The position numbers were made by a program, and so were the translations under genes. The notes beneath the pieces were generated by a model that saw only the letters and a program-made list of their open reading frames with translations, was not told the DNA's origin and ran no database searches. Shown here in pieces: positions 7,895-36,033 of a stretch of 41,673 bases of DNA. This stretch comes from an uncultured Oscillospiraceae bacterium (lineage in GTDB: Bacteria > Bacillota > Clostridia > Oscillospirales > Oscillospiraceae): contig CANPXZ010000004.1 in NCBI GenBank assembly GCA_947587485.1, positions 1 through 41,673 of the forward strand, written 5' to 3'. Position 1 is the stretch's first letter, and every line of letters begins with the position of its first letter.

Positions 7895-8530
7895 ATGGAC
7901 AAGCAGGTGAGACGGCAGATCCGGGTGAAGAACTGGCGGCTATGGGCGCTGGCGGGGATAGCGATCCTGACGTTGGTATACACGTTCCTGCGGCAGGCGC
8001 CCATAGGGGAGAGGACGATAACCCTGACGGCGCGTGGAGAGCAGGAGAGCGTGGCGGACGGGAGCGAGATCTGGCTCCGGCGGGTGGAGATAGACGGAAA
8101 GGAATACGCGCCGGAGGAAGTGTTCACCGGCAAGTGGATCGAGGAAAAGGGATACTACGTCTGGCGTACATACGACCGGGTGGAGGGAATGACGGACAGC
8201 CTGACGGCCACATTCCCGGGGGACGCGGACGTGGATATGTACTTTGAGTCGAACCGGTGGCGGGGGATCCTGCGGGTGCAGGACGGGTGTATTCTGCCGC
8301 GGCTTTACAGGGTGAACTGCTACCGGGACACGGGCGCGGGGGACGAGCTTATCAGCTACAAGCAGACCAGAATGGCTCCCGGCATCCTCCGGGCCGCCAG
8401 ACTGCTGCTGTTCTACGCGACGGCCTGGATTCTCATTACGGAGATACGCCAGCGGGTTTTGAATAGAAGACGCATGCTTGAGCAAAAGACGGTGTCAAAA
8501 AAGCCGGTTCCAAGCGATCCGGACGTCTGA
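7895..8530 (+). CDS. Membrane protein with TM - extracytoplasmic beta-rich domain - TM (module copy 1)
   Basis: N-term TM, ERTITLTARGEQ...SEIWLRRVEIDGKEY...GKWIEEKGYYVWR domain, C-term TM; homologous to N-term of 16236-18347. Confidence 0.7.
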   Translation: MDKQVRRQIRVKNWRLWALAGIAILTLVYTFLRQAPIGERTITLTARGEQESVADGSEIWLRRVEIDGKEYAPEEVFTGKWIEEKGYYVWRTYDRVEGMTDSLTATFPGDADVDMYFESNRWRGILRVQDGCILPRLYRVNCYRDTGAGDELISYKQTRMAPGILRAARLLLFYATAWILITEIRQRVLNRRRMLEQKTVSKKPVPSDPDV

Positions 8531-8568
8531 ATCTGTATGCAAGTAGAGAAGAGTGGAGGAAATAAACC

Positions 8569-11500
8569 ATGGGAAAAAAGAATGCGATTATCCTTGCTGA
8601 TACGAGGCCGGCGCTGGTAGGAACGGTACTGCTGCAGCTGGATAAGACAAATAAGGGCCTTTTTGACGAGGCGATCATATATTATTCTGATCCAATCGAT
8701 GAAAAAGACCAGGCGCTGATGTGCCAGATCATGCCCTGCCGCTTTATTGAGTATGAACCGGATCTGCCGGATTTTCTCTTTGATAAGCCCCGCTTCAAAC
8801 GGTTTTCCCCCTTGATGTTCTGCCGGTATGAGATGCCGCGGTATTTAGAAGAATTTGAGACTGTCACATGGCTTGACACAGACATTCTGATCCAGGGTGA
8901 CTTGAGCCAGATAATCGAACAGGCAAAGCAATGTGGCGCGGCAATTGTCCGGGAGGACGACATCAATAAGACTGCCAAGCGACCGGATACAATGCGAACC
9001 TGCTTCACAAGGGATGTCGTTGGATATAAAACGGACGAATATCTCTACGTTTCAGCTCTGATCGTTCTCACAAAGAAAAGCGGACTGACTGAACAATATA
9101 CCAATTGGTGTTACAGGAAGACAACGCAGTGGTCGGATATTTTGAATTTACCTGACCAAGGCGTTATTAATGCTGCCATACAGGCATTTGATATCAAAGT
9201 GTCGCCTGTATGCGGAAGTATTTTTGGCTGCTATCCATTCCGGGGAAGAGATTGTTCCAAGGCGAAGATTATCCATGCGTGGGGGTCAAATAAGTTTTGG
9301 AATGATTGGTATCTGCATCTGAACTATCCCCAGTGGCAAGACTATTATGAACAGTGGATTGCGATGGGAGGATGTAGTTTCCCGGTTCAGCAGGAGCCGA
9401 AGATTTCCATCGTTATTCCATTGTATAAACCAGATCTGGAACAGCTGGAAAAATGTCTGGACAGCCTGATGGCGCAGAACCGGAATGATTGGGAGAGATA
9501 TTCGGATTTTGAGATCATCCTTGTGGCAGAGCCGGGAGAGAACGACGCGCTGCAGGCTCTGCTGGATACATATCAGGACAAGGGTATCCGGCTCCTGGTC
9601 AACGAGCGGCGGCTGGGGATAGCGGCGAGTCTGAACCGTGGAATGAAGCAGGCTAAAGGCCGCTATATTGCCAGGGTGGACGCGGACGACGTCTGTGCCA
9701 GACCGCGGATGTGTATGCAAGAAGAGTATCTGGACAGTCATCCGGAGATCATGCTCTGCACCAGCGATTACGAATACTTCGGTGATATGAACGAGGGACG
9801 AGTGATCTTTGAAGGAGAATTGAGCAGAGCTTGGTCAGTACTCACTTGCCCGTTTGATCATCCGACCATTATGTTCCGCAAGGATTTCTTCCTGGATAAC
9901 GATCTGTTCTATGATGAACAGCGTGGGTTCGTGGAAGACTGGGAACTGTGGTGCCGTGCGTTCAAAAAGGGCATGACGGTGGGGTGTATCCACAAGGTGC
10001 TCTACTCACACCGGTGGGTAAACGCGGCCAGTGCCGGACAGACAAACCAGACCATCATCATGATGCGGGAGATGATTCAGAAAAACTTCTCCGAGCTGGG
10101 TGTGCAGATCCCTACGGAGGATCTGCGCATCATGGGCCCGTGGAACGGGAAACTGCTTGATCCTGCCGATATTGAAAAACTGAAGGGCTATCTTGACCAG
10201 GCGCTCAAGCAGAACCAGACCCTGGGTCTGTATGACCAAGAGAGTTTGGAGTATGTATTCTCGCTGCGCCTGCGGGAGGCCGAGACTGGAAAGCTTCCCG
10301 GCCTTGTAAAGAAGGCCAAGAAGAAGAAAAAAGCTCCCCCAAAGACAAAAAAGCTGCCGGAAAAGCCCAAAACCCTCAAGGGGAGAGTCAAGCAGCTGCT
10401 CAAACCTCTGTATCAGCCGTTCAGAAAACGGTATGAGAATCGGCTTATCCGTCTGGAAAAGAAGGCCGACAGCATCAGAGAACATAGCTATGTGCTGGAA
10501 GGGCATTTGTGGAGCTGCATCAACAAATTGGATGTAGAGCATCAGATGATCAACTCGAATATGGAATTGATCACAGCGCTGCTCTACGAACAACTGCAGC
10601 TTCGCAGGCGCATGGATCGGCAGGAGAAGCAGTTTGAGCAGGCGATCGAGAACTGGACAAGGGAACGCTACCAGCGGACAGAGCAGTTGGTCAGAGACAA
10701 GGTATGGAACTTGGGGCAGCAGCTGGACAAGCAGGTTGAGGATTGGACCTGGGAACGGTATCAGCGAACGGAGAATCTCATTGAGAATAAACTCTGGTCG
10801 CTGCAGCAGGAAACGGAAAGGCTTGTTAAAGACTGGACATGGGAGCGCTACCGCCGGACAGAGCAGCTGTCGGAAAAAGTGGAAGGCGAGCTCAACGACA
10901 CACTGGGCAGATATACAAGAGAGATCCATCGGCATGTAGATTTTACATACCGGGATCTGATGGTAGCGCTGGAACGTGCGTCGGCCTTTCTGCCGGCAGC
11001 GGATATCACCCTGGAGACCGACTATCCGATAGCTTATGAAAGCCTGGATCATCTTTATCCCCATGGGACGATACAAGATAACACACGCTACCCGCGGTTT
11101 ATTGAGAAGTGCGAAACACTGTTGAGACCGAAGGGGAAGCTCTCGTTCTTGGATCTTGGATGTTCTGGCGGCGGCATGGTACTGGAGGCGGCGCTGCGGG
11201 GCCATGTCTCGATCGGTCTTGAGGGGAGCGACGCTTCTCTGAAAGAGCAAAGGGCAGAATGGCGGCTGCTGGGCGACCGGCTGATGACCTGCGATATCGC
11301 AAAACCCTTCAAACTCCGGGGCAGCGACGGGCAGAACTACAAGTTTGACGTGATCACCGCCTGGGAGGTGCTGGAGCATATCCAGGAAAATGACATTGGC
11401 CAGCTCCTGGAGAACATCAAAGAGCATCTTTCCGAAGATGGATTCTTTGTTGGCTCCATTGCCAATTGGGACGATATCGACCCGGAGACGGGTGTGAACT

Positions 11501-11700
11501 GGCATGTCACGGTGCACCCCTACGAATGGTGGAAGGAGCGCTTTGAGGCGGCGGGGATGCAGGTCTGCAGCGAGATGTTCGACCCCATTGATCTGGCCCG
11601 GGGCGGGTACAATCCTCCCCACTGCTATGAGGCGCCCTATCCGGAGATAGATCCGAACCGGTCGATCCATATTGCCGCGAGAAAGGCGGAGAGCGTATGA
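8569..11700 (+). CDS. Multidomain GT8 - GT2 - coiled coil repeats - SAM-dependent methyltransferase
   Basis: VTWLDTDILIQGDL (GT8 DxD); PKISIVIPLYKPDLEQLEKCLDSL...ARVDADD (GT2); three 30-aa WTxERYQRTE repeats; FLDLGCSGGGMVLEAALRG...AWEVLEHI (MTase). Confidence 0.8.
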   Translation: MGKKNAIILADTRPALVGTVLLQLDKTNKGLFDEAIIYYSDPIDEKDQALMCQIMPCRFIEYEPDLPDFLFDKPRFKRFSPLMFCRYEMPRYLEEFETVTWLDTDILIQGDLSQIIEQAKQCGAAIVREDDINKTAKRPDTMRTCFTRDVVGYKTDEYLYVSALIVLTKKSGLTEQYTNWCYRKTTQWSDILNLPDQGVINAAIQAFDIKVSPVCGSIFGCYPFRGRDCSKAKIIHAWGSNKFWNDWYLHLNYPQWQDYYEQWIAMGGCSFPVQQEPKISIVIPLYKPDLEQLEKCLDSLMAQNRNDWERYSDFEIILVAEPGENDALQALLDTYQDKGIRLLVNERRLGIAASLNRGMKQAKGRYIARVDADDVCARPRMCMQEEYLDSHPEIMLCTSDYEYFGDMNEGRVIFEGELSRAWSVLTCPFDHPTIMFRKDFFLDNDLFYDEQRGFVEDWELWCRAFKKGMTVGCIHKVLYSHRWVNAASAGQTNQTIIMMREMIQKNFSELGVQIPTEDLRIMGPWNGKLLDPADIEKLKGYLDQALKQNQTLGLYDQESLEYVFSLRLREAETGKLPGLVKKAKKKKKAPPKTKKLPEKPKTLKGRVKQLLKPLYQPFRKRYENRLIRLEKKADSIREHSYVLEGHLWSCINKLDVEHQMINSNMELITALLYEQLQLRRRMDRQEKQFEQAIENWTRERYQRTEQLVRDKVWNLGQQLDKQVEDWTWERYQRTENLIENKLWSLQQETERLVKDWTWERYRRTEQLSEKVEGELNDTLGRYTREIHRHVDFTYRDLMVALERASAFLPAADITLETDYPIAYESLDHLYPHGTIQDNTRYPRFIEKCETLLRPKGKLSFLDLGCSGGGMVLEAALRGHVSIGLEGSDASLKEQRAEWRLLGDRLMTCDIAKPFKLRGSDGQNYKFDVITAWEVLEHIQENDIGQLLENIKEHLSEDGFFVGSIANWDDIDPETGVNWHVTVHPYEWWKERFEAAGMQVCSEMFDPIDLARGGYNPPHCYEAPYPEIDPNRSIHIAARKAESV
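10648..10917 (+). repeat. Three 90-nt / 30-aa tandem repeats (ENWTRERYQRTEQL.. / EDWTWERYQRTENL.. / KDWTWERYRRTEQL..)
   Basis: Exact 30-residue periodicity counted in translation: 10648-10737, 10738-10827, 10828-10917. Confidence 0.85.
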
Positions 11701-12795
11701 GTGGGAATACGGATATGCGGAAAAATCAGCCCCGGAGCGATCGCGGGGGGGGGTAAACACGAAAGTTTCTTCCATCGGTTGGGAAAGCGCCTTTTCGCCG
11801 GCTTCGCAGACGAGCTCCGGGAGGAGATAAGGCAGGTTCTCCAGCGTGAGACGCAGGAATTGGAACGCAGCGTCGAGGCTTGGACCTGGGAGCGGTATCA
11901 GCGAACGGAGAAACTGGTGGAGAACTGGACCTGGGAGCGATACCAGCAAACGGAAAAGCTTCTGAAGGACACGATAGACCGCCGCCTGCAAAAGCTCATG
12001 CCGCTGCCGTCTCTGCGGACGCTGGATGTGCATATTGCGGAGCACTGCAATTTGAACTGTCAGTGCTGCGACAATTTCTCCCCCATCGCCGAGGAACAAT
12101 ACACAGACTATGACAGCCTGGCGCGGGATTTTGCCAGACTGCGTGAGCTGTCCCACGGGCAGGTGGGCACCATCTATCTGGACGGCGGCGAACCGCTGCT
12201 GCATCCGAGGATCGCCGATTTTGTCTCTCTTACGAGAGAGCATTTTGAAGAATCGGATATCTATGTGGTGACCAATGGGATACTGCTTGCTCAGATGCCG
12301 GAAGCGTTCTGGGAAAAATGCGCCTCCAACCATGCCGGAGTCCTGATCACGAAATATCCGATCCATCTGGATATGGAGACCATCGAGGCGAAAGCGGCAG
12401 AGCACGGTGTCGTCTGGCGGTTTTACGATGAAAGCGCGGATTATAAGGAAAAAACCACCACATTCATGCCTTTGGATATGCATGGCGGCCACGAAAGCTA
12501 CCAGAATTTTGTGAACTGCTATCACGCGAATTACTGCATCTACCTCTGGGAGGGGCGGATCTATACCTGTTCAGTAGCCGCGAGCATTCGGCATTTCAAC
12601 CGGTTCTTCCACGAGGATCTGCCGGACGTGCCGGAAAATTCCATCAGCATCTATGAAGCGAAGGATATGGACGAGATCCTGCGGTTTTTATGCCGGCCCA
12701 TCCCGCTGTGTGAATACTGCGATATCCCCGGCCGAACCTTTGATATCCCCTGGGGGATATCCAAACAGGAAAAGAGCGAGTGGGCGCATGTATGA
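11697..12795 (+). CDS. Radical SAM protein with N-terminal coiled coil; frame interrupted by a G9 tract (apparent OFF state)
   Basis: HIAEHCNLNCQCCDNFSPI (CxxxCxxC), YLDGGEPLLHP. ATG 11697 (ATGA overlap) gives MSGNTDMRKNQPRSDRGGG* with G9; G8 would join to GKHESFFHRLGK...; the listed ORF needs GTG 11701. Confidence 0.75.
11745..11753 (+). repeat. Homopolymer G9 directly followed by TAA
   Basis: tcgcGGGGGGGGGtaaacac. Confidence 0.95.
11875..11964 (+). repeat. Two 45-nt / 15-aa repeats EAWTWERYQRTEKLV / ENWTWERYQQTEKLL
   Basis: Translation of 11875-11919 and 11920-11964; same motif as in 8569-11700. Confidence 0.85.
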
Positions 12796-12830
12796 AAAGG
12801 CGGTGCCGGGGGCTGCCAAAGGAGGTATTC

Positions 12831-13385
12831 ATGAATACATCGGATAGAGCATGGGGGAAGGCTGCGCTGAAGCGCATGCTGCCCAGTTTGGTAACAGCGC
12901 TGGCTGCGGCGGCCGTCTTGTTCGCTGCTTTTTCCGTATGCCTGAGGACGAATCTTGCGGAGCCGACGTATATGGCGATCTCTTCCCTGGCAGAGGATCA
13001 GCCTGTCACCTTCCGGGGCGCGACAGTAGATGGAAAATGGCTGAATCCTTCCGATATGCTGGTGTCGGCAGGGAGCTGGGTCGAGGATCCAGAGCAGAGG
13101 GTTTATACCTCCTCAGACGAGACTCCGCTGCGGCTGGAGCTGCCGCCGGGACAGGAGCGCACCCTGGCCTTCAATTCCGGCCCGGACGAGGGCGCGGTGC
13201 TGGTAGAGTTTGACGAGGATCAGCTGGAATTTGACCTGTACAGCGACGCCGTCGCTGAGCTGGGGTCGAATTACCAGGTGCCCGCCGCGCTTCCCCACGG
13301 GCTGCCGTTTTATATTTTCTTCCTAATAGCCGCGCTGCTGTTCGGCATGTTCGCGCTCATCCCCGACAGAAGTGCGGGGGGGTAA
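12831..13385 (+). CDS. N-terminal half of a beta-module/acyltransferase-3 protein, truncated by a G7 tract (module copy 2)
   Basis: RBS AAAGGAGG; TM + EPTYMAISSLAEDQPVTFRGATVDGKW...GSWVEDPEQRVYT + TM, ends DRSAGG* at the G7 tract. Confidence 0.75.
   Translation: MNTSDRAWGKAALKRMLPSLVTALAAAAVLFAAFSVCLRTNLAEPTYMAISSLAEDQPVTFRGATVDGKWLNPSDMLVSAGSWVEDPEQRVYTSSDETPLRLELPPGQERTLAFNSGPDEGAVLVEFDEDQLEFDLYSDAVAELGSNYQVPAALPHGLPFYIFFLIAALLFGMFALIPDRSAGG
13376..13382 (+). repeat. Homopolymer G7 directly followed by TAA
   Basis: agtgcGGGGGGGtaagac. Confidence 0.95.
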
Positions 13386-13444
13386 GACTTCCTGAAGAAC
13401 GGGACGTTTCCGGCGACCTGCTCCGGGGCGTATGCTGTTTCACG

Positions 13445-14416
13445 GTGGTGCTACTGCACTGCACGTGTAACTGCCTTGACAGCTATGGCCCACCGCTCTC
13501 TGCCTGGTATCCCCACCTTATCATGAACAGCCTTACGGCCTTTGCCGTACCTGCATTTTATATGCTCTCCGGGGCATATTTGCTGGGCAAGCCCCAGCCC
13601 GTCCGGAACACGCTGTCTAGAAGGGTGCCGCGCCTGTTGATCCCGCTGGTATTTTGGAGTGTATTCTACATTATATTCAGCGGCGATATCCGGCCACAGA
13701 AGTTTTTAGAAATGTTTTTCCAGCCGCAGACGCCCCATTTGTGGTTTATGTACTGCATTCTGGGGATCTATTTTCTCCTTCCGCTGTTATCCAGACTCTA
13801 CGTGGCTTTGGGGACAAAGGAGAAAATATACCTGCTCATGCTGCTGCTTGTGGTTCCGTCGCTGCTGCATGACACGGAATATATCGTAAACCGCTATGTG
13901 CAGATGCCGTATTTTGCAGTGTTCTGGCCGGATCTAGGGCTGTTTTGCCTGGGGGCGTTTCTGCGGGAACACAGCGAACAACTGAAAAGATATAAAAATT
14001 GGATGCCCGCGGCATTCATTTTAGGACTGGTGCTTACCGCCGGACTGACGCTGTATGTCAGCGCACGTGATAATGCTCTGAACAAAAACTTTATCAGCTG
14101 CATCGGAAGCGTTGGCGTCCTGCTTATGGCGGCGTCGCCTCTGATATGGGCTTGGGGCAACGAGGAAGCACTGAAGAAGCTTCCAAACTGGACAAAAAAG
14201 CTGATCCATGGGCTCGGACAGACGTCGATGGGCGTGTACCTGATCCACGTATTGGTGATGCAGATGCTTAACCGCTCTGCACTCCCGTGGCTGCCGCTGT
14301 ACAGTAACGAGGGATCGATGCTCCAGATGTGCTTCAGCGCCGTCGGATACTTTGCCATAAGCGCGGTCATCTGCTGGTGCGGAGAAAAAACGCCGCTGGC
14401 GAGAAAAGTGATATAA
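13445..14416 (+). CDS. Acyltransferase family 3 membrane region, C-terminal part of the frame-split gene starting at 12831
   Basis: AFAVPAFYMLSGAYLL...LWFMYCILGIYFLLPLLSRL...MGVYLIHVLVMQML; the missing AT3 N-term (LPEERDVSGDLLRGVCCFTVVLLHCT) appears if the tract is G8. Confidence 0.75.
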   Translation: MVLLHCTCNCLDSYGPPLSAWYPHLIMNSLTAFAVPAFYMLSGAYLLGKPQPVRNTLSRRVPRLLIPLVFWSVFYIIFSGDIRPQKFLEMFFQPQTPHLWFMYCILGIYFLLPLLSRLYVALGTKEKIYLLMLLLVVPSLLHDTEYIVNRYVQMPYFAVFWPDLGLFCLGAFLREHSEQLKRYKNWMPAAFILGLVLTAGLTLYVSARDNALNKNFISCIGSVGVLLMAASPLIWAWGNEEALKKLPNWTKKLIHGLGQTSMGVYLIHVLVMQMLNRSALPWLPLYSNEGSMLQMCFSAVGYFAISAVICWCGEKTPLARKVI

Positions 14417-14467
14417 GACCGGCTGGAATATAAGCAATCAGCCAGGATGTAATTTGGAGAATGGTTC

Positions 14468-16090
14468 ATGAAGCGTGTTAGGAAGAAAGGTGATCGTCGG
14501 ACGCGGATCGTGCTGAACAACAGGATTGTCGCGGCTTTTGCAGTGGTCATTCTATGTCTGTCCTGCGTGCTGGCGGCGGTTGTTATCCGAAGACCTATCC
14601 GAGTACTGGTCACGGTGCAGGAAGGTTCTGGTTCGGTGACCTACCGAGGAGCGATGGTGAGCGACAGTTGGTGCAATCCGCCAGCCGGATTATCTCCAGA
14701 TGGCTCCTGGATTTTTGATTCCAAGACGTCTACATATACCGCCGCAAGTTATCTGCCTTTAGAGATCGAATTGCCGGCAGGAGAGGAATGTGCTCTTGTT
14801 TTCAATTACGGTCCGGACGAGGGCGTTGCGGTCGTAGAGGCGCGGGGCGAGCGGTTTGAATTTAATCTGTACAACAATACAGTTGTGGAGTATGGAAAAT
14901 CATTCCAAATTCCGGGCGTGGAGCCGATGGATCGTTCGTATTACGCTCTTCCTTTGGTCATCTTGGCGGTTCTTATCGCTCTTATGGGATATGTCTATGC
15001 AGGAAACGACATGCAGAGGAAGACCCGCAGCCGGGGGATTGAAATATACAGGTTTTTGTTTTCCCTGGTGATCATGCTGCACCATATCGGTTGGCAGTTC
15101 AGTTTTAATTTGTTCAGCGCCGGATATCTGGCGGTAGACATGTTTTTTATTGTCAGCGGATATTTCCTTGCGGCGCATTACGAGCGGAAGACCGTGGAGG
15201 GTAGGGGGGTATTAGGGCCGGAAGAAAGTGCCCTGCAATACGCGGCCGGGCGGTGGAAACGGATGTTTTTCCACCACAGCTGGGCGTTCCTTGTGGCGGC
15301 TTTTTCTTCGGTCGTGCTGCTGAAAAACGCCGGTTGGAAGCAGATCCTGTTTGATAACTGGCTGGAGTTTCTCATGTTGGAAGAGACCGGCCTTGGAAAT
15401 GAAGCGGTTATAAATGGCGTGGGTTGGTATTGCAGTGCATTGTTCCTGGCTTCTTTCCTGGTGTATTATTCCCTGTGCAGGAACAAAAAAGCACATGTGT
15501 GCGTGATTATGCCGATCACCGCTGTGCTGGCATTTTCCTACTTTTATAGATATGGGGATCTGAACCGATACCTACAAAATCCGCTGATGATCTGCGATGG
15601 GGCGATCCGGGGATTTGTAGAATTGTCGATGGGCTGTGCATGCTATTATGCAGTCGTGAGGATAAAAGGAGGCCAGTACAGATTTGTGCAGCAGCGTTTG
15701 GAACCGTGGATGTACGGTCTGACGGAGACATTGTGCTTTGGTGCGCTGATGTACATCATGTGGAAACCTGGCGGGTATAAGCCGGGATGGTTTGTGTCCC
15801 AGGACTTTATGGCCATACCAATAATGGTACTGCTTGTGATTGTAGTGTTGTCGGAGAAAAGTATCCTTCATAAGCTTTGGGATAATAGTCTGTCCGCTTT
15901 CCTCGGAAAGCTCAGTTTTTCTATCTTCTTAAATCATACAGTGATTCTTGGCCTGCTCACAAAATTCATGATCGGCAGACCGGTGCCGATGATCCTGTCG
16001 ATCTATCTTGGCACAACGATCGGATATTCTGTTTTGACGATGCTGGTGATCGACGCGCTGGAGAATGTCGTTTTTAGGAAGAGAATCTGA
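14468..16090 (+). CDS. Beta-module fused to acyltransferase 3 (module copy 3)
   Basis: TM + VTYRGAMVSDSWCNP...GSWIFDSKTSTYT + TM + RSRGIEIYRFLFSLVIMLHHIGWQ...VDMFFIVSGYFLAAHYERK. Confidence 0.8.
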   Translation: MKRVRKKGDRRTRIVLNNRIVAAFAVVILCLSCVLAAVVIRRPIRVLVTVQEGSGSVTYRGAMVSDSWCNPPAGLSPDGSWIFDSKTSTYTAASYLPLEIELPAGEECALVFNYGPDEGVAVVEARGERFEFNLYNNTVVEYGKSFQIPGVEPMDRSYYALPLVILAVLIALMGYVYAGNDMQRKTRSRGIEIYRFLFSLVIMLHHIGWQFSFNLFSAGYLAVDMFFIVSGYFLAAHYERKTVEGRGVLGPEESALQYAAGRWKRMFFHHSWAFLVAAFSSVVLLKNAGWKQILFDNWLEFLMLEETGLGNEAVINGVGWYCSALFLASFLVYYSLCRNKKAHVCVIMPITAVLAFSYFYRYGDLNRYLQNPLMICDGAIRGFVELSMGCACYYAVVRIKGGQYRFVQQRLEPWMYGLTETLCFGALMYIMWKPGGYKPGWFVSQDFMAIPIMVLLVIVVLSEKSILHKLWDNSLSAFLGKLSFSIFLNHTVILGLLTKFMIGRPVPMILSIYLGTTIGYSVLTMLVIDALENVVFRKRI

Positions 16091-16235
16091 TGCTGTTTTT
16101 ATCCGTAGGAACGGCAGCGTGATATATGATAACAAAATGAAAAACAGTATTGATGTTGGAAAGAAACCTATATCCGCTTACTGACCCTATCGCTGTGAGT
16201 TAAGTTACAGTACCTTAAGTTAGGAGAAAGAACCC

Positions 16236-18347
16236 ATGATACTTAAAACAGACTTAGTGCTCAAGATCTTCATGACCTTTGCAACCGTTTTGATTGGGTA
16301 TTTCGTGCTGCGAAAAAAGCTGACTGTTGGACAACTTTTGATCTTTTGCCTGTCTGTCGCCATATTTGCGCTGGCAGCAGATCGCATATCCAAAATAATT
16401 CCGCCGCTGCGGGATAAAATAGTCATCACTGCGCTGGGGGAAAAGAACGAGGCAGCGCAGGCAGACGAGCTGTGGTTTTCCGGCTATACGGTAGACAGCG
16501 AAGTGTTTGAAAATGGAACATCCCTGCAGATCCGTGATGGGAAATGGTTCTGGAGCGGAGAAACGTATGTCTGGAGGAATGAACTGGATCCGCGTCAACC
16601 GGCGGGAACGACTCGGACGATTACAGTCGGTATCCCGGTCGGTTTGCATAGGTCGTTGAACTTCACGATGAACCCGTGGGGAGGAAAGGCTGAAATTGCG
16701 GATAGTCAGGGAAGCGAAGTATATGATTTTTATTCTGAAAAAGAAAGAACAGTAAGTATATCAATCTGTGAAAGTGAAACATCTCTGTTGATTTGGAATT
16801 GGATTCTCCATCTGGCAGTATACGCGATTGTTTTTTTAATATTGTCATATATTACAGCTGCGCTGATTATCCGTCTCAAGCGCGATTCGGTTTGGAGAGA
16901 AAAGCACAGTGGCAAACTGATTTACGGTGGCATTGCGGTATGGGCCTTTGTTCTGATGGCGACGTATGCGGGCAATACGCCGTTCTGGCAGGATGAGTTG
17001 TGGCAGATAACCGGAACCAGTGGGACGATTAAGGAGGCGATCCAGTACTGTCTGGAGGTGCGCGAGGCATCCCCTCCGCTGCCGTTCATTATTTCGACGA
17101 TTTGGTACCATATAGCGCCGTATGGGGAGCAGTGGCTCCTTATGGTATCGACTGTCCCGGTGACGATCGCTGTCTATGCCATGGGGTTGGCGGGCGAACG
17201 GGTCGGAGGCAGGCTGTTTGGGATACTGTCTGTAATCTTTATGGTGACGGTACCGACGTTGTGGGGCAACGTGGCCTATGAATACAGAGCTTATGCGTTC
17301 ATGGTAATGTTCTCAACGCTGACATTGTACAGCTACATCTACCGGAATCAGAATCCAACGTCAAAAAAAGCGAGTGTTTTGTTTGGACTTTCTATGACCG
17401 GCCTGGCAATGAGCCACTACTATGGTATGATAGCGTGCGTCTGTTATTTTGTGGCGGACTGTTTCCTAGTATATTACAAACAGCGATCCTGGAAGGAAGT
17501 GTTCACTTATTTTCTTCCAGGAGGCGTGAGTCTCATATGGCTCGTTCTAGTCGTGATCACTGTAGTCCGGGTCGGGGGAATGCAAGGAGAAGTTGCTTGG
17601 CAACCAGTTCCTTCGGTGGCGCTGGTCAAGGATGTGTTTGATTTTATTACAGGGTATTTCACTTTTGCTTGCTGGGTTTTGTTTGCGGGTGTTGCTGCAT
17701 CGCTGGTGGTCGCTTTTCGGCTTCGGAAAGAAACGTTTACATGGCAGCGGTTTTATGTATCTTTCTGTGGTCTTGCATTTCTCGGAACGATTACAGTGAT
17801 GTACATCTATGGCAATATCAATACAAAACACACGATGTGGCTCAGCAGGTATTTTTTCTTTTTATTACCACAATCCTGTTTTTTGTCAACATGGATAGTG
17901 GGAAAAGGCGCCGAGCTTCTTGGCCGGCAGGAAGAACAGACGGTGCTTATCCAGAAAACGGTATGTCTCTTTATTGCCGTAATCATGGGATTCAACTGTT
18001 GGAGTTATGGCATTAGGGCGCAGTTCATGTTGGAGCCTAATAAAGATGCTGCTGATTGGATATATACACAGATCAATACGATCTTCCTGGATGACACGGT
18101 GATTTTGGCGCCTAAGCATGTGGATGTAGGTTGGGAGAAGTATTACATTGAACGGCAGGGGCGCAGAGATCCGCTACATGTTGTCTGCCAGGCTGATATT
18201 GAAAAAGAAGAACTGCTGGCGTATGATACGGTGTTTACAATTACCCCGCTTCGTGAAGAACTGCAGAGAACCCTGGATGAAATGTATACTCTGGAGGTCG
18301 ATAATACAACGGCAGCAGCAAAACTTTATGTGAGGAATACAGATTAA
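16236..18347 (+). CDS. Beta-module fused to GT-C (GT39/ArnT-like) membrane glycosyltransferase (module copy 4)
   Basis: N-term DKIVITALGEKNEAAQADELWFSGYTVDSEVF...GKWFWSGETYVWR; then TPFWQDELWQ...REASPPLPFIISTIWYHIAPYGE, multi-TM. Confidence 0.7.
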   Translation: MILKTDLVLKIFMTFATVLIGYFVLRKKLTVGQLLIFCLSVAIFALAADRISKIIPPLRDKIVITALGEKNEAAQADELWFSGYTVDSEVFENGTSLQIRDGKWFWSGETYVWRNELDPRQPAGTTRTITVGIPVGLHRSLNFTMNPWGGKAEIADSQGSEVYDFYSEKERTVSISICESETSLLIWNWILHLAVYAIVFLILSYITAALIIRLKRDSVWREKHSGKLIYGGIAVWAFVLMATYAGNTPFWQDELWQITGTSGTIKEAIQYCLEVREASPPLPFIISTIWYHIAPYGEQWLLMVSTVPVTIAVYAMGLAGERVGGRLFGILSVIFMVTVPTLWGNVAYEYRAYAFMVMFSTLTLYSYIYRNQNPTSKKASVLFGLSMTGLAMSHYYGMIACVCYFVADCFLVYYKQRSWKEVFTYFLPGGVSLIWLVLVVITVVRVGGMQGEVAWQPVPSVALVKDVFDFITGYFTFACWVLFAGVAASLVVAFRLRKETFTWQRFYVSFCGLAFLGTITVMYIYGNINTKHTMWLSRYFFFLLPQSCFLSTWIVGKGAELLGRQEEQTVLIQKTVCLFIAVIMGFNCWSYGIRAQFMLEPNKDAADWIYTQINTIFLDDTVILAPKHVDVGWEKYYIERQGRRDPLHVVCQADIEKEELLAYDTVFTITPLREELQRTLDEMYTLEVDNTTAAAKLYVRNTD

Positions 18348-18382: not shown

Positions 18383-19156
18383 ATGGAATTTAGATCTGTC
18401 AGTATTATTCTGCCGACTTTAAAGGAAACGGATTCTTTTATTCAGGCGGTCTCCATGCTCCTTGATATGAATGATCGGCAAGACATCGAAGAATTTATTG
18501 CTGTGGTCTGCGACCGAACAAAACCAGAGAGTTTTCAGAGTATAGAAAAAGGACGGAAGATCGCAGAGGCGGCTGGCATACCGCTTAAAGTGCTGCATCA
18601 GACACGCCCATTTTTCGGCGGGGCGCTCCAGGATGGGTTTGATGTGGCAAAGGGATCCCATGTTTGCATGGTCACGCCAGACCTTGATACTGCGCCGGAT
18701 AAAGTGCCGGAAATGATCATGCAGGCGAAACAATTTCCGGGAGATATAATCATTGGCTCCCGATGGAAAAAAGGCGGAGGATTTAAAAATTACAGCAGGA
18801 TCAAGAAAATATGGAATTTTTTCTCCCAAAAGTTTTTGGATGTGCTTTATCTATCCACACTCACAGACTTTACGTGGGGAAATCAGTTGACACCGACAAT
18901 ACTTGCGCGTGCGATTTATCATAGGGAAGATAAACATCCGATCAATATTGAACGAGTGGTCATCCCATTGAGGCTAGGCGTCGGCTTCCGTGAAGTCCCG
19001 GCAGTGTGTCACATGATGGATGGAGAGACGGTGAATCCATTAATGGCAAATCTCGCGTATCTACGCCCTGCTTTCCGTTGCCGCTTTGCACGGCGGGAGA
19101 CTTTGGTAAAGCCGGGAATCGACTGGAAGGCGCTTATGAAGGAGCTAAAAGGATAG
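18383..19156 (+). CDS. Glycosyltransferase family 2 (polyprenyl-P-sugar synthase/DPM1-like)
   Basis: VSIILPTLKETDSFIQAVSMLL...GGALQDGFDVAKGSHVCMVTPDLDTAPDKV. Confidence 0.75.
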   Translation: MEFRSVSIILPTLKETDSFIQAVSMLLDMNDRQDIEEFIAVVCDRTKPESFQSIEKGRKIAEAAGIPLKVLHQTRPFFGGALQDGFDVAKGSHVCMVTPDLDTAPDKVPEMIMQAKQFPGDIIIGSRWKKGGGFKNYSRIKKIWNFFSQKFLDVLYLSTLTDFTWGNQLTPTILARAIYHREDKHPINIERVVIPLRLGVGFREVPAVCHMMDGETVNPLMANLAYLRPAFRCRFARRETLVKPGIDWKALMKELKG

Positions 19157-19171
19157 GAGGGTAGGAATGCA

Positions 19172-20173
19172 ATGGAACAAACGGCAAAGATCTATGTGGC
19201 TGGACATACAGGGTTGTTTGGTTCAGCGCTTGTTCGCGCACTGGAGAAAAGAGGATTTGCAAATATAGTTACGCGCACCCATGCCGATCTTGATTTGACA
19301 GACGGCGCCGACACAATGGCCTTCTTTAAAACGGAAAGGCCGGATTATGTTTTTGTGGCAGCGGCTAAAGTGGGGGGCATTCAGGCAAATAATCTGTATA
19401 TGGCGGATTTTGCCATGGAGAATTTGCTTATTACCTGTAATGTGCTGCGCGCCGCCCACGAGGTGGGAGTGAAAAAACTTCTTTATCTTGGCTCTTCCTG
19501 TATTTACCCGAGAGAAGCAGATCAGCCAGTGAAGGAGGAGTATTTACTGACTGGTTTGCCGGAACCTACAAATGAAGGCTATGCCGTCGCAAAGATCGCA
19601 GGCGTGCGGATGTGCGATTACTATAAGCGGCAGTATAATGACGATTTTATAAGCTGCATACCTGCTAACGTATACGGGGAAAATGATAACTTTGATTCAC
19701 AGAACAGCCATGTGATACCGGCGCTGCTTCAGAGATTCCATCAGGCAAAGAAGGAACGGGCACCTTATATTGAGATATGGGGCACGGGCAGCGCAGAACG
19801 GGAATTCATGTATATTGATGATGGCGCCGATGCATGCCTCTATGTTATGGAGCACTATAATGGACCGAGGACTATCAATATTGGAATGGGCCGCACAACT
19901 TCGATCCGTGAACTTGCTGAGCAGATTCGCAAGGTAGTCGGATATGAAGGAGAGATCCGTTACGACACTACCAAACCGGATGGCATGCCGCGCAGGCTGC
20001 TGGAGAGCAGCAAGATCACAAATCTGGGCTGGGCGCCGCGTATCGAATTGGCGGACGGATTGGAGAAAACATACCGTTGGTATTTGAATAAGCTTGCGGA
20101 TAAAGAGGATCGCGTCAGAAAGGAGATCGACATGAATAAGGACGATAAGGTTTTTGTGGGGGGGTTGGAGTAG
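19172..20173 (+). CDS. GDP-L-fucose synthase-like SDR; C-term reads through into the start of the next gene
   Basis: AKIYVAGHTGLFGSALVRALEKRG...AAKVGGIQANN...GSSCIYPREADQPVKEE; ends ...KEIDMNKDDKVFVGGLE* just after the G7 tract. Confidence 0.8.
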   Translation: MEQTAKIYVAGHTGLFGSALVRALEKRGFANIVTRTHADLDLTDGADTMAFFKTERPDYVFVAAAKVGGIQANNLYMADFAMENLLITCNVLRAAHEVGVKKLLYLGSSCIYPREADQPVKEEYLLTGLPEPTNEGYAVAKIAGVRMCDYYKRQYNDDFISCIPANVYGENDNFDSQNSHVIPALLQRFHQAKKERAPYIEIWGTGSAEREFMYIDDGADACLYVMEHYNGPRTINIGMGRTTSIRELAEQIRKVVGYEGEIRYDTTKPDGMPRRLLESSKITNLGWAPRIELADGLEKTYRWYLNKLADKEDRVRKEIDMNKDDKVFVGGLE

Positions 20174-21063
20174 CAGGTACTGCAATTGTGCGATTGTTAC
20201 AAAAAAACGGCTATATTAACATTTTGGCTCCAACTCATAGGGAGTTGGATCTGGGTTCCAGCGAACAGGTGAGCCGCTTCTTTCATGATAACAGACCGCA
20301 GTATGTGTTTTATACGGCGGCCAAGATGGGTGGCATCACTTACCGGAACGCACACCCCGCAGAGCTTTTGCTGGAGAATCTGCAAATGCAGGTCAACGTG
20401 ATCCAATATGCACATGAGTATGGCGTAAAGCGTTTGCAGTTTATGAGCAGTGACTTCATTTATCCAGAGAAGACAGCAGACGGCACATTGCGGGAGGAAG
20501 ACTTTTTGAACGGTCTTCCCAGCAGAAGAGATTTTCCATACAGTTTGGCAAAGATCGTTGGGGTAAAGTTGTGTGACTATTATCGTGAAGAATATGGCGA
20601 CAGTTTTTTTACAGTCGTACCTTGTGCGTTTTTTGGTATAGACTCGTCATTTGATGTTGAACGGGCAAATGTGGTGGCGTCATTGATGAGACGAATGCAC
20701 GAAGCTAAGGAATCTGGCACGCGGGAATTTGTCTTATGGGGCACAGGGAAACCGGTCAAGGAATTCCTATTCAGTGACGATTTGGCTTCAGCCTGTGTTC
20801 TGCTGATGGAGCAGGATGCATGTGAGGGGCTTTACAATATTGGCTCGGGTTCTGGCGGCATTTCCATTATGTCGCTGGCAGAGAGCATCAGAGAAGTAGT
20901 TGGGTATAAAGGCAGAATCGTCTGTGATCCATCTATGCCGGATGGCGTCCCCCGCAGAGTTCCGGACTCTACGCGCTTGCGGTCGCTGGGATGGAGACCG
21001 TTATACGATCTACAAACGGCACTCCAGTTGACGTACGATCATTTTATTAAGTCATGCGCGTGA
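20132..21063 (+). CDS. Second GDP-L-fucose synthase-like SDR, frameshifted at a G7 tract in the Rossmann GxxGxxG coding region
   Basis: AGGAGA RBS, ATG 20132; G8 gives MNKDDKVFVGGVGVAGTAIVRLLQKNGYINILAPTHRELDL...AAKMGGITYRNAHP...SSDFIYPEK. Confidence 0.7.
20158..20164 (+). repeat. Homopolymer G7
   Basis: tttttgtGGGGGGGttggagtag (run follows 'gt'). Confidence 0.95.
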
Positions 21064-21103: not shown

Positions 21104-22327
21104 ATGAAAGTCTTGATTTTGGGCGCCGGCGCAGCTGGATTGACACTGGGGAACAGGCTGGTGGATAAAGGGATTGATTCATTTTTGATCCTTGAGAAGG
21201 AAACGGAACCGGGGGGCCTTTGCCGCTCCATAGAGTTTGAGGGCGAGCCGATCGATATTGGTGGACCGCACTATTTGGATCATCGTTCTGAAAAAGTGTT
21301 GAACTACTTGTTTGGCTTCATGCCCAAGGACGAGTGGAATCTCTATGAGAGGGACAGCAGAATACTGGTGAATGGGCAGCTCATCAACAGCCCGTTTGAA
21401 GCAAATCTATGGCAAATGGATCTGGATAGCCAAGTTGGCTATCTGGAGTCTATTTCTGCAGCCGGGTGCAACACGGGGGCCAATGCGCCGGAGAGCTTTA
21501 AGAACTGGATATATTGGAAACTCGGTAAACGTATAGCTGATGATTATATGATCCCTTATAACTCCAAACTCTATGGAGACAATCTGGACGCCATGGGAAC
21601 ATACTGGCTATATAAATTGCCAAGCGTCTCATTCCGGGAGACGCTGTTGAGTTGCCTGCAAAAGAGAGCGTATGGTACACAGCCATGCGTGGCAGAGTTT
21701 TATTATCCCAAGAAAACGGGCTTTGGAGAATTGTGGCGCAGAATGGCGGATCGGCTGGAGGGGCATATCTTCTGCAATCAGAGCGTCAGTTATATTGATA
21801 TGGATCGCAAGACCGTGAAGACGAAGACAGGCGAAACATATCAGGCGGATATTATTATTACCACGATCCCTTGGAGATGCTTTGATGAAATAGACGGGCT
21901 GCCAAAGGAACTGAAGGAAGGATTGAAAAGCCTGAAGTATGTGGCTATAGAGAACCGGTATATCAACGATGACGTGGATACGCAGGCGCAGTGGGTGTAT
22001 TTCCCGGATATGAAACTGCCCTACCATAGAGCGACTATCCGTAAAAATGTTTGGCCGACTATGCATGGCATGATAATTGAGATCAATCAAAATAGAGTGA
22101 AGCTCATACCGGATGATATGCCGTATAACTATAAGTTTGCTAATGAGTATGCCTATCCGGTCAATACGATTGGCAAGCCGGAGCTTATGAAATCTGTGCT
22201 GGCATATGCGGGGCAAAAACAAGTATATGGTCTTGGCAGGTGGGGAGAGCATCAGCACCACAATTCTGATGTGGTCGTTGAATTGGCAATGGATTTTGTG
22301 GATAAAGTGGCGGAGAAGATCATATGA
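21104..22327 (+). CDS. FAD/NAD(P)-dependent oxidoreductase, protoporphyrinogen oxidase/UDP-galactopyranose mutase-like
   Basis: MKVLILGAGAAGLTLGNRLVDKG...LEKETEPGGLCRS...DIGGPHYLDHRSEKVL. Confidence 0.75.
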   Translation: MKVLILGAGAAGLTLGNRLVDKGIDSFLILEKETEPGGLCRSIEFEGEPIDIGGPHYLDHRSEKVLNYLFGFMPKDEWNLYERDSRILVNGQLINSPFEANLWQMDLDSQVGYLESISAAGCNTGANAPESFKNWIYWKLGKRIADDYMIPYNSKLYGDNLDAMGTYWLYKLPSVSFRETLLSCLQKRAYGTQPCVAEFYYPKKTGFGELWRRMADRLEGHIFCNQSVSYIDMDRKTVKTKTGETYQADIIITTIPWRCFDEIDGLPKELKEGLKSLKYVAIENRYINDDVDTQAQWVYFPDMKLPYHRATIRKNVWPTMHGMIIEINQNRVKLIPDDMPYNYKFANEYAYPVNTIGKPELMKSVLAYAGQKQVYGLGRWGEHQHHNSDVVVELAMDFVDKVAEKII

Positions 22328-23100
22328 GATTTGAAAATGTTTCAGTAATCATTCCTACGCTGCGAGAAACAGAATCATTTCTCCAGACAATAGATACGAT
22401 CTTGGATAGTTGCGAGCATCAGGATTTGAAAGAATTTCTCATAATGGTTTGCGACGCGACTACCGAGCGATCTATGGAATATATTCTCAGATGCAAAGCT
22501 CGAGTTGAATCTATGGGGATCTGTTTCCGCATAGAGCGTCAACAGCGGCCGTACTTAGGCGGAGCGCTGGTCGATGGTTTTTTGGCGGCAAAAGGCTCAC
22601 ATCTTGTAGTCGAAACTGCAGATCTGAACACGGCGCCGGAAAACTTGGCGTCTATGATCGAACTTGCAAAGCAGTATCCCATGGATGTGATATCATGCTC
22701 CCGATGGCTTAAGGGAAGCGGTTTTGAAAACTATCAGTTTGTCAAGAGAGCTTGGAATTATTGCTCGCAGAAGCTATTGCAAGCGCTTTATATGACGCGC
22801 TTGAGCGATTTCACTTGGGGGACGCATTTGGTGCCGTCTGCACTTTACCAAGCCATTGATTTTCAGGAGAGAAAGCACCCGATCGCAGTGGAGGAGGCAG
22901 TGATTCCTTTGCGCTTGGGTATTGCGTTTCATGAGATTCCTGGAATATGTCATGTTGACGAGAGCGATGTCTCTGTGCAGCCGCTTTGGGCAAACGTTCT
23001 CTATTTGCGGCCAGCGTTCAAGTGGCGGTTCGCAAAGAAGGAAAAAATGCTGCGCAAAGGCGTCGATTATGATGATTTGATAAACAGGCTGAGAGGATAA
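22324..23100 (+). CDS. Glycosyltransferase family 2 (paralogue of 18383-19156)
   Basis: VSVIIPTLRETESFLQTIDTILDSC...GGALVDGFLAAKGSHLVVETADLNTAPENL. Confidence 0.75.
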   Translation: MRFENVSVIIPTLRETESFLQTIDTILDSCEHQDLKEFLIMVCDATTERSMEYILRCKARVESMGICFRIERQQRPYLGGALVDGFLAAKGSHLVVETADLNTAPENLASMIELAKQYPMDVISCSRWLKGSGFENYQFVKRAWNYCSQKLLQALYMTRLSDFTWGTHLVPSALYQAIDFQERKHPIAVEEAVIPLRLGIAFHEIPGICHVDESDVSVQPLWANVLYLRPAFKWRFAKKEKMLRKGVDYDDLINRLRG

Positions 23101-23184: not shown

Positions 23185-24336
23185 GTGGAATTGGTGGAGC
23201 TTTCTGTAGTGATGTTGGCGTATCATGGGGATGAGAGTCTGAGGCGGTTTTTTCCGGAAGTGAAAAAAGTGATCGGGACGATGGATGTTGATTCGGTTGA
23301 GTATTTGATTGTTGATTCAGCTAATCCGGCAGTTGATACCGAGGGTGTATGCAGGGAGTTGGGCGTTCGCTATGTCAAACAGGAAGAATTTGGCTATGGT
23401 GGAGCATACCGAACTGCCATCCGGCATGCACAGGGCGGATCGGTTCTGATTCTAGATACCGATGGTTCTCAGAGCATTGATCAGATCCCCAGGATGTATC
23501 AGGAACTGAAGGCCGGCGCTGATGTGGTGCTCGGATCGTATGTTTCAGGTGAAAAGACTGATGAGCCAAGATTACCCCGAATCATGTCCAGAATGTTGAG
23601 CTTTTTTTCCCGGCTTGGGATCGGTGTCAACATACGTGATTTCTCAGGCAGTTTGAGACTTTATCATACGGAGGATCTGCAACGGCTTCACTTGGTTAGT
23701 GAGGACGTAAATATATTAGGAGAACTGATTCTTAAGTTAGAACTGTCAAAAGGAAATGCTATTGTTACAAAAGAAGTCCCGATCTCCTATCTGAGAAGGA
23801 TCGAAGACGGATCGAAATATTCCCTGATCAGGTTCGTCATATCTTTTGGACGAATGTTGGTATATTCGATGGTTTTACGGTTCCTGGCTAGAGGAGGGTA
23901 CTGTACGCAAAAGCATGATCCGCGTGCACAGACGATAACTGATCTGCTATTTTATGGCATAGTAGGAGCTATGACAGCGGCAGTCAATCTTGTGGTATAT
24001 TTTCTTCTGGAAAATGTCGTGCATTATCTGTTCGCTAATGCAATTGCGTGGATAATCTCTGTTTTGTTTGCTTTTATAACAAACAAAACGATAGCATTCA
24101 ATAATTGGGATTGGGATCACATCGCCTTAGTAAAAGAATTCATAGGGTTTGTGACTTCGAGGCTTATTACTGGCGCTTTGGATATGCTGATGCTTTGGTT
24201 GATGGTAGATTTGGCGGCGATGGGCGGTTCCCTCCCGAAATTCTTGGACGCAATCACCGTGATCATTTTGAATTATGTATTCGGAAAGTATGTTTTTAAA
24301 GAAAAAAAGGAACGGAGCTCTGAGCAAGAGCGGTAA
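23185..24336 (+). CDS. GT2 (DPM1-like) fused to GtrA-like membrane domain
   Basis: ELSVVMLAYHGDESLRRFFPEV...LILDTDGSQSIDQIPRM; C-term YGIVGAMTAAVNLVVYFLL...FAFITNKTIAFNN...NYVFGKYVFKEKK; GTG start. Confidence 0.8.
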   Translation: MELVELSVVMLAYHGDESLRRFFPEVKKVIGTMDVDSVEYLIVDSANPAVDTEGVCRELGVRYVKQEEFGYGGAYRTAIRHAQGGSVLILDTDGSQSIDQIPRMYQELKAGADVVLGSYVSGEKTDEPRLPRIMSRMLSFFSRLGIGVNIRDFSGSLRLYHTEDLQRLHLVSEDVNILGELILKLELSKGNAIVTKEVPISYLRRIEDGSKYSLIRFVISFGRMLVYSMVLRFLARGGYCTQKHDPRAQTITDLLFYGIVGAMTAAVNLVVYFLLENVVHYLFANAIAWIISVLFAFITNKTIAFNNWDWDHIALVKEFIGFVTSRLITGALDMLMLWLMVDLAAMGGSLPKFLDAITVIILNYVFGKYVFKEKKERSSEQER

Positions 24337-31072: not shown

Positions 31073-31148
31073 AAATCCTACGCTATAATGAACGGAATAA
31101 TTTTATGGATTTGCATAGGCATGCGGGCCTTTGAGGAGTGGAGGAATA

Positions 31149-32096
31149 ATGAAGATAAGCGTAACAATCCCAAGCTATAATGAGGAAAAAAGTGTGCGGC
31201 TGATGTATGAGCGGCTGACGAGGGTTTTTGCAGAGAAACTTCCTCAGTATGATTATGAAATCATCTTTGTGGACGACTGTTCCCCGGATAATACGCGGGA
31301 AGAGATCCGAAAGCTTTGCGCCGAGGACAAGCGTGTAAAAGGTGTCTTTAACGCGAGAAATTTTGGCTTTAACCGCAACGTGTTCGCTTCCTTGCTCTAC
31401 GGCGACGGTGATGCCACCTTCATGCTCTTCGGCGATTTGCAGGATCCGCCGGAGATGCTGCCGCAATTTGTGGCTGAGTGGGAGAAGGGCCATAAGGTGG
31501 TCGTGGGGCAGAAGACAAAGAGCGCTGAGCCATGGCTGATGTATACCCTGCGCACCTTATATTACAACGTGATCGGCCGACTGGCGGATTCCGGGCAGAT
31601 CCAACATTTCAACGGCTATGGGTTGTATGACCGGGTGTTTATCAATGCCATGCGGCTGATAGATGACCCGAATCCCTATCTGAAAGGCCTTGTCTCTGAG
31701 TTCGGGATGAACATCAAGGTGCTCCAGTATGAACAGGCGGAAAGCATGCGGGGCAAATCCGGCTTCAACTTTATGAAGTATTATGATGTAGCGATGCTTG
31801 GTATCACATCCTATACCAAGATCCTCATGCGGATTGCCACGTTTTTGGGGGCGGGGTTGGGGATAATCAGCGCATTCCTGGCCTTGTTTGTACTTATCAG
31901 CAAATTGATGAACTGGAATACCTACCCCTACGGTACGGCAGCAATTCTCATTGGCGTTTTCGCGATCGGCGCGGTGCAGCTGTTTTTCATGGGGATCCTG
32001 GGCGAGTACATATTGAGCATCAATACGCGGACGATGCGCCGGCCGCTGGTGGTAGTGGGTGAAAAGATTAACTTTGAAGAGGACAAGCAGGAATGA
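31149..32096 (+). CDS. Polyprenyl-phosphate glycosyltransferase, GT2 with two C-terminal TM (GtrB/ArnC-like)
   Basis: MKISVTIPSYNEEKSVRLMYERL...IIFVDDCSPDNTREEIRKL...FGDLQDPPEMLPQF; C-term GILGEYILSINTRTMRRPLVVV. Confidence 0.85.
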   Translation: MKISVTIPSYNEEKSVRLMYERLTRVFAEKLPQYDYEIIFVDDCSPDNTREEIRKLCAEDKRVKGVFNARNFGFNRNVFASLLYGDGDATFMLFGDLQDPPEMLPQFVAEWEKGHKVVVGQKTKSAEPWLMYTLRTLYYNVIGRLADSGQIQHFNGYGLYDRVFINAMRLIDDPNPYLKGLVSEFGMNIKVLQYEQAESMRGKSGFNFMKYYDVAMLGITSYTKILMRIATFLGAGLGIISAFLALFVLISKLMNWNTYPYGTAAILIGVFAIGAVQLFFMGILGEYILSINTRTMRRPLVVVGEKINFEEDKQE

Positions 32097-33487: not shown

Positions 33488-33488
33488 G

Positions 33489-34457
33489 ATGAGAATCGGA
33501 ATACTGGGGACATCGGATATAGCGTGCCGGCGATTTCTGCCGGCGCTGAAAAAGTGTGCAAATCTGACATACGCGGGCGTGGCCAGCCGGACGCCGGAGA
33601 AGGGAAAGCCGTTTCAGGAGCAGTACGGCGGGCAGATCTACGACGGGTATGACGCGCTTTTGGCGGACGAGAGCATCGGGGCGGTATATGTGCCGCTGCC
33701 GCCGGCGCTCCACTGTCAGTGGGCAAAAAAGGCCCTGGAGGCGGGAAAGCATGTGCTGTTGGAAAAGCCCTTTGCCACCAGTCCGGAGCAGACGGAGACT
33801 CTTCTGACGCTGGCGGAGGAGAAGAACCTTGCGGTGCATGAAAACTATATGTTCCTTTACCACCGGCAGCTGGCGCTGATAAAGCGCTATATCGAATCCG
33901 GCGAGCTGGGGCAGCTGCGGCTGCTGCGGATGGCGTTCGGCTTTCCCAAGCGGGAGGGGAACGACTTTCGCTATAACCGGGAGCTGGGCGGCGGCGCGCT
34001 GCTGGACTGCGGCGGGTATCCGGTACGGCTGGCCCAGGAACTGCTGGGCGGCAGCGCCCGGGTGACCCAGGGCCGGCTTGTGGAGCCGGAGGGGTATGAG
34101 GTAGATCTTTACGGCAGCGCGGTGCTGGAAAACAACGAGGGGCTGTGCGCCCAGGTGTCCTTTGGTATGGACAACGCCTACCAGTGTCAGCTGGAGGTGT
34201 GGGGAAGCAAGGCCACGCTGATCGCCCCGCGGATCTTCACGGCGGGGGCTGACCTTGCCCCGCGCCTGATCTTGCGCGGTGCCGGGGGCGAGACCGTGAC
34301 GGATGTCGAGCCGGACGACCAGTTCCTGCACTCTATAGAGCGGTTCATGCAGAGTGTGGAGGACGAAAACGTCCGGAAGCAGATGCGCCAGGCCATCCGC
34401 CGGCAGAGCCAGGCGGTGGACGCGATCCGGCAAGGAGGAGAGAGAAAATGCGAGTGA
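33489..34457 (+). CDS. Gfo/Idh/MocA-family oxidoreductase (NDP-hexose 3-ketoreductase candidate)
   Basis: MRIGILGTSDIACRRFLPALKK...YVPLPPALHCQWAKKALEAGKHVLLEKPFATS. Confidence 0.85.
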   Translation: MRIGILGTSDIACRRFLPALKKCANLTYAGVASRTPEKGKPFQEQYGGQIYDGYDALLADESIGAVYVPLPPALHCQWAKKALEAGKHVLLEKPFATSPEQTETLLTLAEEKNLAVHENYMFLYHRQLALIKRYIESGELGQLRLLRMAFGFPKREGNDFRYNRELGGGALLDCGGYPVRLAQELLGGSARVTQGRLVEPEGYEVDLYGSAVLENNEGLCAQVSFGMDNAYQCQLEVWGSKATLIAPRIFTAGADLAPRLILRGAGGETVTDVEPDDQFLHSIERFMQSVEDENVRKQMRQAIRRQSQAVDAIRQGGERKCE

Positions 34458-35005: not shown

Positions 35006-35010
35006 GCGGG

Positions 35011-35991: not shown

Positions 35992-36033
35992 ACTTACGTT
36001 CCTGCCCGGCGTCCCGGCATATGACCATGCCGG

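Follow-up and report, generated by a model that had tools for sequence, protein, structure and literature searches.

The closest described systems have an accessory domain on the ATPase of an ABC glycan exporter, or additional domains on GT-C or acyltransferase enzymes. The Bacillus subtilis TagGH ATPase is followed by one transmembrane (TM) helix and then an extracytoplasmic domain that is thought to bind wall polymers (PMC11466899). In Wzm-Wzt exporters, Wzt has a carbohydrate-binding domain that faces the cytoplasm and, ahead of export, recognises the terminating cap (PMC9445017, PMC11231755). GT136 ORF12 is a GT-C enzyme that works outside the cell on an ABC-exported glycan, with a CBM that binds the unmodified backbone and a lipid-linked donor system (PMC11127046). 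Finally, acyltransferase 3 (AT3) proteins occur as AT3-SGNH and AT3-alanine racemase fusions, in which the added domain is extracytoplasmic in the SGNH case; the available text of these two sources describes no N-terminal beta module (PMC7448272, PMC9558356). The review among them asks whether AT3-only proteins require a partner, and its available text does not mention ABC transporters (PMC9558356).

We analysed 41.7 kb of contig C4 (hereafter "the window") from an Oscillospiraceae genome bin of 201 contigs and 73.8% completeness. All of its coding lies on one strand and forms a surface-glycan cluster, with heptose-type kinase, isomerase and nucleotidyltransferase genes, several GT2s, NDP-sugar epimerases and dehydratases, and a UDP-galactopyranose mutase. 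Four of the encoded proteins (A, B, C and D) carry the same unit, a TM segment, an all-beta domain of ~100-115 aa and a second TM segment, here termed the module, which in relatives is also fused to ABC exporter subunits.

These ABC-module fusions resemble TagGH, an ABC teichoic-acid exporter, in joining an exporter ATPase, a TM segment and an extracytoplasmic domain. By its description, however, the TagGH domain is SH3b-like and ends the protein, whereas the module precedes a second TM segment and an AT3 or GT-C enzyme; unlike the TagGH domain, it is also found away from the exporter. The likeness to Wzm-Wzt is an accessory domain on an ABC glycan exporter ATPase that is tied to glycan modification, but the Wzt domain sits on the cytoplasmic side and the module outside. 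With GT136 ORF12 the module GT-Cs share an extra beta-rich domain, a lipid-linked donor system and a proposed action outside the cell on ABC-exported glycan; the ORF12 domain follows TM11, whereas the module is N-terminal, lies between two TM segments and is common to AT3 and exporter proteins. The AT3-SGNH and AT3-alanine racemase fusions likewise join AT3 to an additional domain, in the cases described in the available text C-terminally, while the module is N-terminal to AT3. Our search of the literature for ABC-AT3 or ABC-GT-C fusions returned nothing relevant. What is new here is an uncatalogued domain family and its fusions; the kind of system is already known. That the module exists, lies outside and has been joined repeatedly to exporter subunits as well as to tailoring enzymes is solid. 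With a probability of roughly 45%, we propose that it is an accessory, extracytoplasmic, CBM-like unit that would recruit substrate in ABC-transporter-dependent surface-glycan assembly.

A recurrent beta-rich module in four window proteins

The four carriers lie together in the window, where type I denotes the GT-C-linked module and type II the AT3-linked module:

7895..8530, + strand: protein A, standalone TM–module–(weak) TM, 211 aa; module 8006-8335
12831..13385, + strand: N-terminal part of protein B, TM–module–TM, 184 aa; type II module 12963-13253; stop just past a run of seven G
13376..13382, + strand: the run of seven G, where the frame switches between B and its AT3 part
13445..14416, + strand: AT3 (PF01757) part of B in the shifted frame; 43-45% identity to the AT3 of ABC ATPase-module-AT3 fusions
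14468..16090, + strand: protein C, TM–module–TM–AT3, 540 aa; type II module 14594-14884
16236..18347, + strand: protein D, two TMs–module–TM–PMT/ArnT-like GT-C, 703 aa; type I module 16410-16745

A preliminary description had proposed this recurrent TM–beta domain–TM unit from the letters of the window. The sequence strings it cited were all found at their places, and pairwise tests, profiles and relatives bear out the recurrence in all four proteins. The region given for it, 7895-16860, is right as to the carriers but not at its end: 16860 is the edge of the module region within D, which extends to 18347.

The second TM segment of A is weakly hydrophobic and falls under the 1.6 threshold. B and C both contain the AT3 domain PF01757 (E 2.6e-31 and 2.3e-18, respectively). 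As suspected when its AT3 architecture was proposed "if frame restored", B is indeed split by the frame change at the G7 run; AT3-like coding runs 5' of the GTG at 13445 in the other frame, and B has no uninterrupted AT3 catalytic domain that includes the start of TMH1. Its counterpart in relatives is a single open frame; in B, the change may reflect an error of sequencing, a pseudogene or phase variation. D itself has no Pfam match over the cut-off; we classify it as a GT-C by its orthologues, which exceed the PF13231 (PMT_2) cut-off, and by an invariant W-x-D-E at residues 251-254, so that the earlier label "GT39/ArnT-like" is a reasonable one. A D-type GT-C profile found no match in the PDB, and tblastn of D against plasmids found none.

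Runs of at least nine G/C across the whole genome gave 15 pattern matches, corresponding to 14 distinct runs (one run of ten was counted twice), and these are confined to five of 201 contigs (C4, 2; C6, 4; C27, 5; C61, 2; C55, 1). G/C-run loci noted are window positions 11745, 13376, 20158, 32519 and 35973, and sites on C6 (L087, L088), C27 (L089), C61 (L090) and C55 (L091). As read from their ORFs, four of these contigs (C4, C6, C27 and C61) hold surface-glycan clusters, and C55 encodes a 2573-aa surface-like protein. Within the window, the reading frame changes at two G7 runs, one at B/AT3 and one at 20158, and many G9 runs are in frame. At the latter (20126-21063), the NDP-sugar epimerase at 20188 apparently lacks its N-terminus, and the expected MNKDDKVFVGG lies in the other frame across the G7 run. 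Such runs look like phase-variable contingency tracts, with sequencing error as a possible alternative.

Pairwise similarity among the modules exceeds composition shuffles for A-D (z 13), B-C (z 33), B-D (z 7) and A-B (z 6); it is weak for C-D (z 3.6) and not significant for A-C (z -0.5), and these last two pairs are tied together only via relatives. An hhalign comparison of the GT-C-type and AT3-type profiles gave a probability of 96.7 (E 3.6e-10, 87 columns), and six positions are invariant or almost so in 12 members (D30, G45, W47, P77, F86 and G93 in D-domain numbering). Judged by sequence comparison, then, module types I and II are homologous.

The module had been called apparently undescribed, and this stands within the libraries searched, Pfam, NCBIfam and the PDB. 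Against Pfam and NCBIfam, nothing exceeded curated cut-offs and the sub-threshold matches were mutually unrelated; sequence searches of the PDB returned nothing significant. AlphaFold2 models of the two module types (pLDDT 76.8, pTM 0.72; pLDDT 69.9, pTM 0.65), built on five-row alignments that did not include loci from other genomes, are both all-beta with 9-10 strands in corresponding order, and do not show the differing folds that would have spoken against a common module. A Foldseek search of both models, which are of moderate confidence, against the PDB gave no match at E<=0.001. The type I model has weak CBM60 and PLAT/C2-like matches (E 0.04-0.3, TM about 0.35; CBM60, TM 0.35-0.39) that are not significant, and the type II model has no such match in the PDB. 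From these models, the module may have a known fold with no detectable sequence similarity.

Relatives, exporter fusions and topology

Searches of genome draws identified 22 module proteins across nine genomes; the draws are samples, so module frequencies are rough. These genomes are the window's own, another Oscillospiraceae bin (L022), three of family f13 (G203, G628, G651), G728 from the same family as the window's genome, and three from f202, which belongs to another class (G1158, G1289, G1290). AT3 and GT-C, whose co-occurrence with the module the preliminary description had put forward as a check, are both among the partners in this set:

Standalone module: 1 (A)
Module-AT3: 2 (B and C)
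Module-GT-C of D type: 11, plus one truncated by a contig end
Further multi-TM module proteins: 3
ABC ATPase-TM-module-TM-AT3: G203 L020:15383-17794 and G651 L037:79-2493, single ORFs of 803/804 aa
ABC ATPase-TM-module-TM-GT-C: G628 L038:10023-12893, single ORF of 956 aa
Module-ABC2 permease: G728 L042:4926-6344

Among these relatives, Pfam recognises the ABC_tran + AT3, ABC_tran, ABC2_membrane and PMT_2 parts, and the fused relatives thereby have the ABC_tran ATPase and ABC2_membrane permease of a TagGH/Wzm-Wzt exporter. For the G628 fusion, the GT-C assignment was made by eye from the multi-TM sequence, as Pfam gave no match there. All of these genomes are draft bins, but three of them, from two genera, have the ATPase fusion as a single ORF, and assembly error is an unlikely source. 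That the module is fused to subunits of an ABC glycan exporter, ATPase or permease, strengthens the earlier suggestion of a shared role across different glycan-modifying enzymes.

The module is rare, since a 7-row profile run on a class-wide draw of 391 genomes found it in the window's own genome only, and patchy, since five other genomes of the same genus lack it. One f202 genome shows three module-GT-C genes in tandem (G1289 L082:6015-12201), the third truncated by the contig end.

This range of architectures bears on whether the module is integral to each enzyme, as a lid over the acceptor site or a stabilising domain in GT-C and AT3, with the exporter fusion incidental. Module sequence type does follow the attached enzyme, and many GT-Cs have extra extracytoplasmic domains (PMC11127046). 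Yet A has the module on its own, an ABC permease has it in the absence of any enzyme, and it precedes two unrelated enzymes on the same ATPase scaffold, which makes this explanation improbable.

The order of parts in the ABC fusions is an ATPase, one TM segment, an acidic module loop, a second TM segment and then AT3 or GT-C. ABC exporter ATPases are cytoplasmic, by established topology; because a single TM segment follows the ATPase, the module lies outside and AT3 starts inside, in line with the known AT3 topology. B and C have a basic N-terminus ahead of TM1 and an acidic module loop, and in D the invariant W-x-D-E follows the next TM segment and is outside, as expected for a GT-C.

Among six D-type GT-Cs, 22 of 113 columns in the module are invariant versus 29 of 523 elsewhere (Fisher p 8.6e-6). 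By this contrast, constraint is stronger on the module than on the catalytic region, and this holds across two classes. Along the entire D-type protein, the best segment of 30 residues in these six is 98-127, the GKWFW..ETYVWR..LDPRQPAGT stretch, and type I modules share the aromatic/polar motif GxWFWxxxxYxWRxxxDxRQPxGxT, which resembles a candidate binding site rather than a spacer. The glycans of the classes that keep this motif probably differ, and a constant ligand (carrier, linkage unit or protein) accounts for its conservation no less well than a variable glycan does.

A constant ligand would also suit a sensor of lipid or carrier, in which a PLAT/C2-like sandwich would bind the surface of the bilayer or undecaprenyl-(pyro)phosphate. 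GT-C donor, exported glycan and exporter all have this carrier in common, and Foldseek hints at a likeness to PLAT/C2 domains. We regard this explanation as very unlikely: those Foldseek values are not significant, and the motif is aromatic with Arg/Asp/Gln rather than a basic or hydrophobic patch.

A common glycan cluster and its exporter

A single glycan cluster is common to the window, G203 and G628, most of its core genes being 57-81% identical. The common order is heptose genes (61-75%), GT8-GT2-methyltransferase, an internal variable part, GT2 31131, NDP-hexose 2,3-dehydratase (59-66%), Gfo/Idh (64-71%), UDP-galactopyranose mutase (71-75%) and RmlA (77-81%). In G203 and G628 the variable part holds a permease, an ATPase-module-enzyme fusion and a module-GT-C; in the window it holds the radical SAM gene, B, C, D and extra sugar genes, so that the exporter genes of G203/G628 sit in the interval occupied by B-D. 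Glycosyltransferase genes of the window with counterparts or candidate donor functions are:

8569..11700, + strand: GT8-GT2-methyltransferase, 1043 aa; a full-length syntenic homologue (57%) adjoins the exporter in G628
18383..19156, + strand: GT2; a homologue adjoins the module GT-C in G1158; sister of 22324-23100
22324..23100, + strand: GT2 similar to polyprenyl/dolichyl-phosphate sugar synthases (dolichol-phosphate mannose synthase / ArnC)
23185..24336, + strand: GT2 with a GtrA/DPMS-type membrane domain; candidate lipid-linked sugar donor synthase/flippase
31131..32096, + strand: GT2; 72-74% identity to GT2s downstream of the module GT-C in G203 and G628

Module GT-Cs are accompanied by relatives of polyprenyl-P-sugar synthases and by GtrA. 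In G203, the GT2 that adjoins the GT-C matches both ArnC and the GtrB-like structure 5EKP (E 3.8e-45), and G1290 has the order exporter ATPase, module-GT-C, GT2, GtrA. By gene content, we infer a match to the three-component extracytoplasmic glycosylation system of PMC11127046.

Three other features of the window were observed. WTWERYQRTE-type repeats are common to the GT8-GT2-methyltransferase and the radical SAM protein (11701-12795), which suggests that the two may associate; in the syntenic clusters, no gene corresponds to the radical SAM one. A 500-aa multi-TM protein (29570-31072), with no Pfam match and no homologue in related loci, is perhaps another GT-C or a polymerase. Genes at 32093-37532 encode an NDP-hexose 2,3-dehydratase, a Gfo/Idh reductase, two RmlC-like epimerases and two reductases, and suggest a 2,6-dideoxy sugar, a candidate for the sugar added by the GT-C.

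Exporter genes lie within or adjoin the module genes in six of nine genomes. L022 has no exporter within 10 kb, and the 41.7-kb window contains no exporter gene; the nearest one of its own genome is on another contig (C10), has no module and shows 72% identity in its ATPase. That ATPase and a UDP-galactopyranose mutase share one 523-aa ORF beside the permease (L043:1498-3069), another fusion of the same exporter ATPase lineage to a glycan enzyme. Defined by ATPase E<=1e-80, this lineage is present in 18 of 295 genomes of the order, of which only G203 has an ATPase-module ORF. We therefore rejected the module as an exporter core subunit, as most genomes of the lineage lack it; it is an optional add-on, not a pump component.

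The module might instead act in protein-protein assembly, with modules binding each other or the exporter to build an export-and-tailoring complex that needs no glycan binding. Several copies occur per cluster (four in the window, two each in G203 and G628, three in G1289), fusions of the module exist to the ATPase as well as to the permease, its strong conservation across classes suits a constant partner, and the standalone anchored copy A could serve as a linker. Copy-copy pairing is nonetheless not obligatory, as type I occurs with no type II in three f202 genomes and G728 has a single detectable copy. Modules also cluster by architecture, not by locus: on the domain tree, grouping by architecture takes one change (GT-C versus AT3/ABC types) and by locus eight, although the sole architecture group with support is the AT3/ABC type II clade (94/90) and much of the branching order is left open. 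No pairwise co-adaptation within loci was seen, and the module is absent from most genomes with the exporter lineage. We regard assembly as the strongest rival, less likely than substrate recruitment. The same clustering by architecture led us to reject within-locus homogenisation of modules as a sign of a common ligand.

A proposed role in export and tailoring

If the module is the substrate-recruiting unit that we propose, a lipid-linked glycan would be built in the cytoplasm and exported by a TagGH/Wzm-Wzt-type pump. The membrane-anchored module, probably beta-sandwich-like, would hold the glycan as it emerges, or the polyprenyl-linked end of it, at the membrane's outer face, and the enzyme of the same polypeptide would then decorate it. 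AT3 would add acyl groups, and the GT-C a sugar from an undecaprenyl-phosphate donor. Fused to an exporter ATPase or permease, the module would place the enzyme or the glycan at the pump exit; the window's glycan would use an ABC exporter encoded elsewhere.

The same ATPase-module scaffold carries AT3 in some relatives and a GT-C in another, a swap expected of an adaptor and one that favours the proposed role. More tentatively, the module may be a mobile, previously unrecognised adaptor that joins or recruits the ABC pump and outside acyl- and glycosyltransferases, such that the glycan is decorated while leaving the pump.

The module offers a handle for annotating unassigned multi-TM proteins in glycan clusters, and it bears on how stand-alone AT3 and GT-C enzymes locate their glycan outside the cell. 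Moreover, the natural fusions of exporter ATPase, module and enzyme make the coupling of export and tailoring directly testable.
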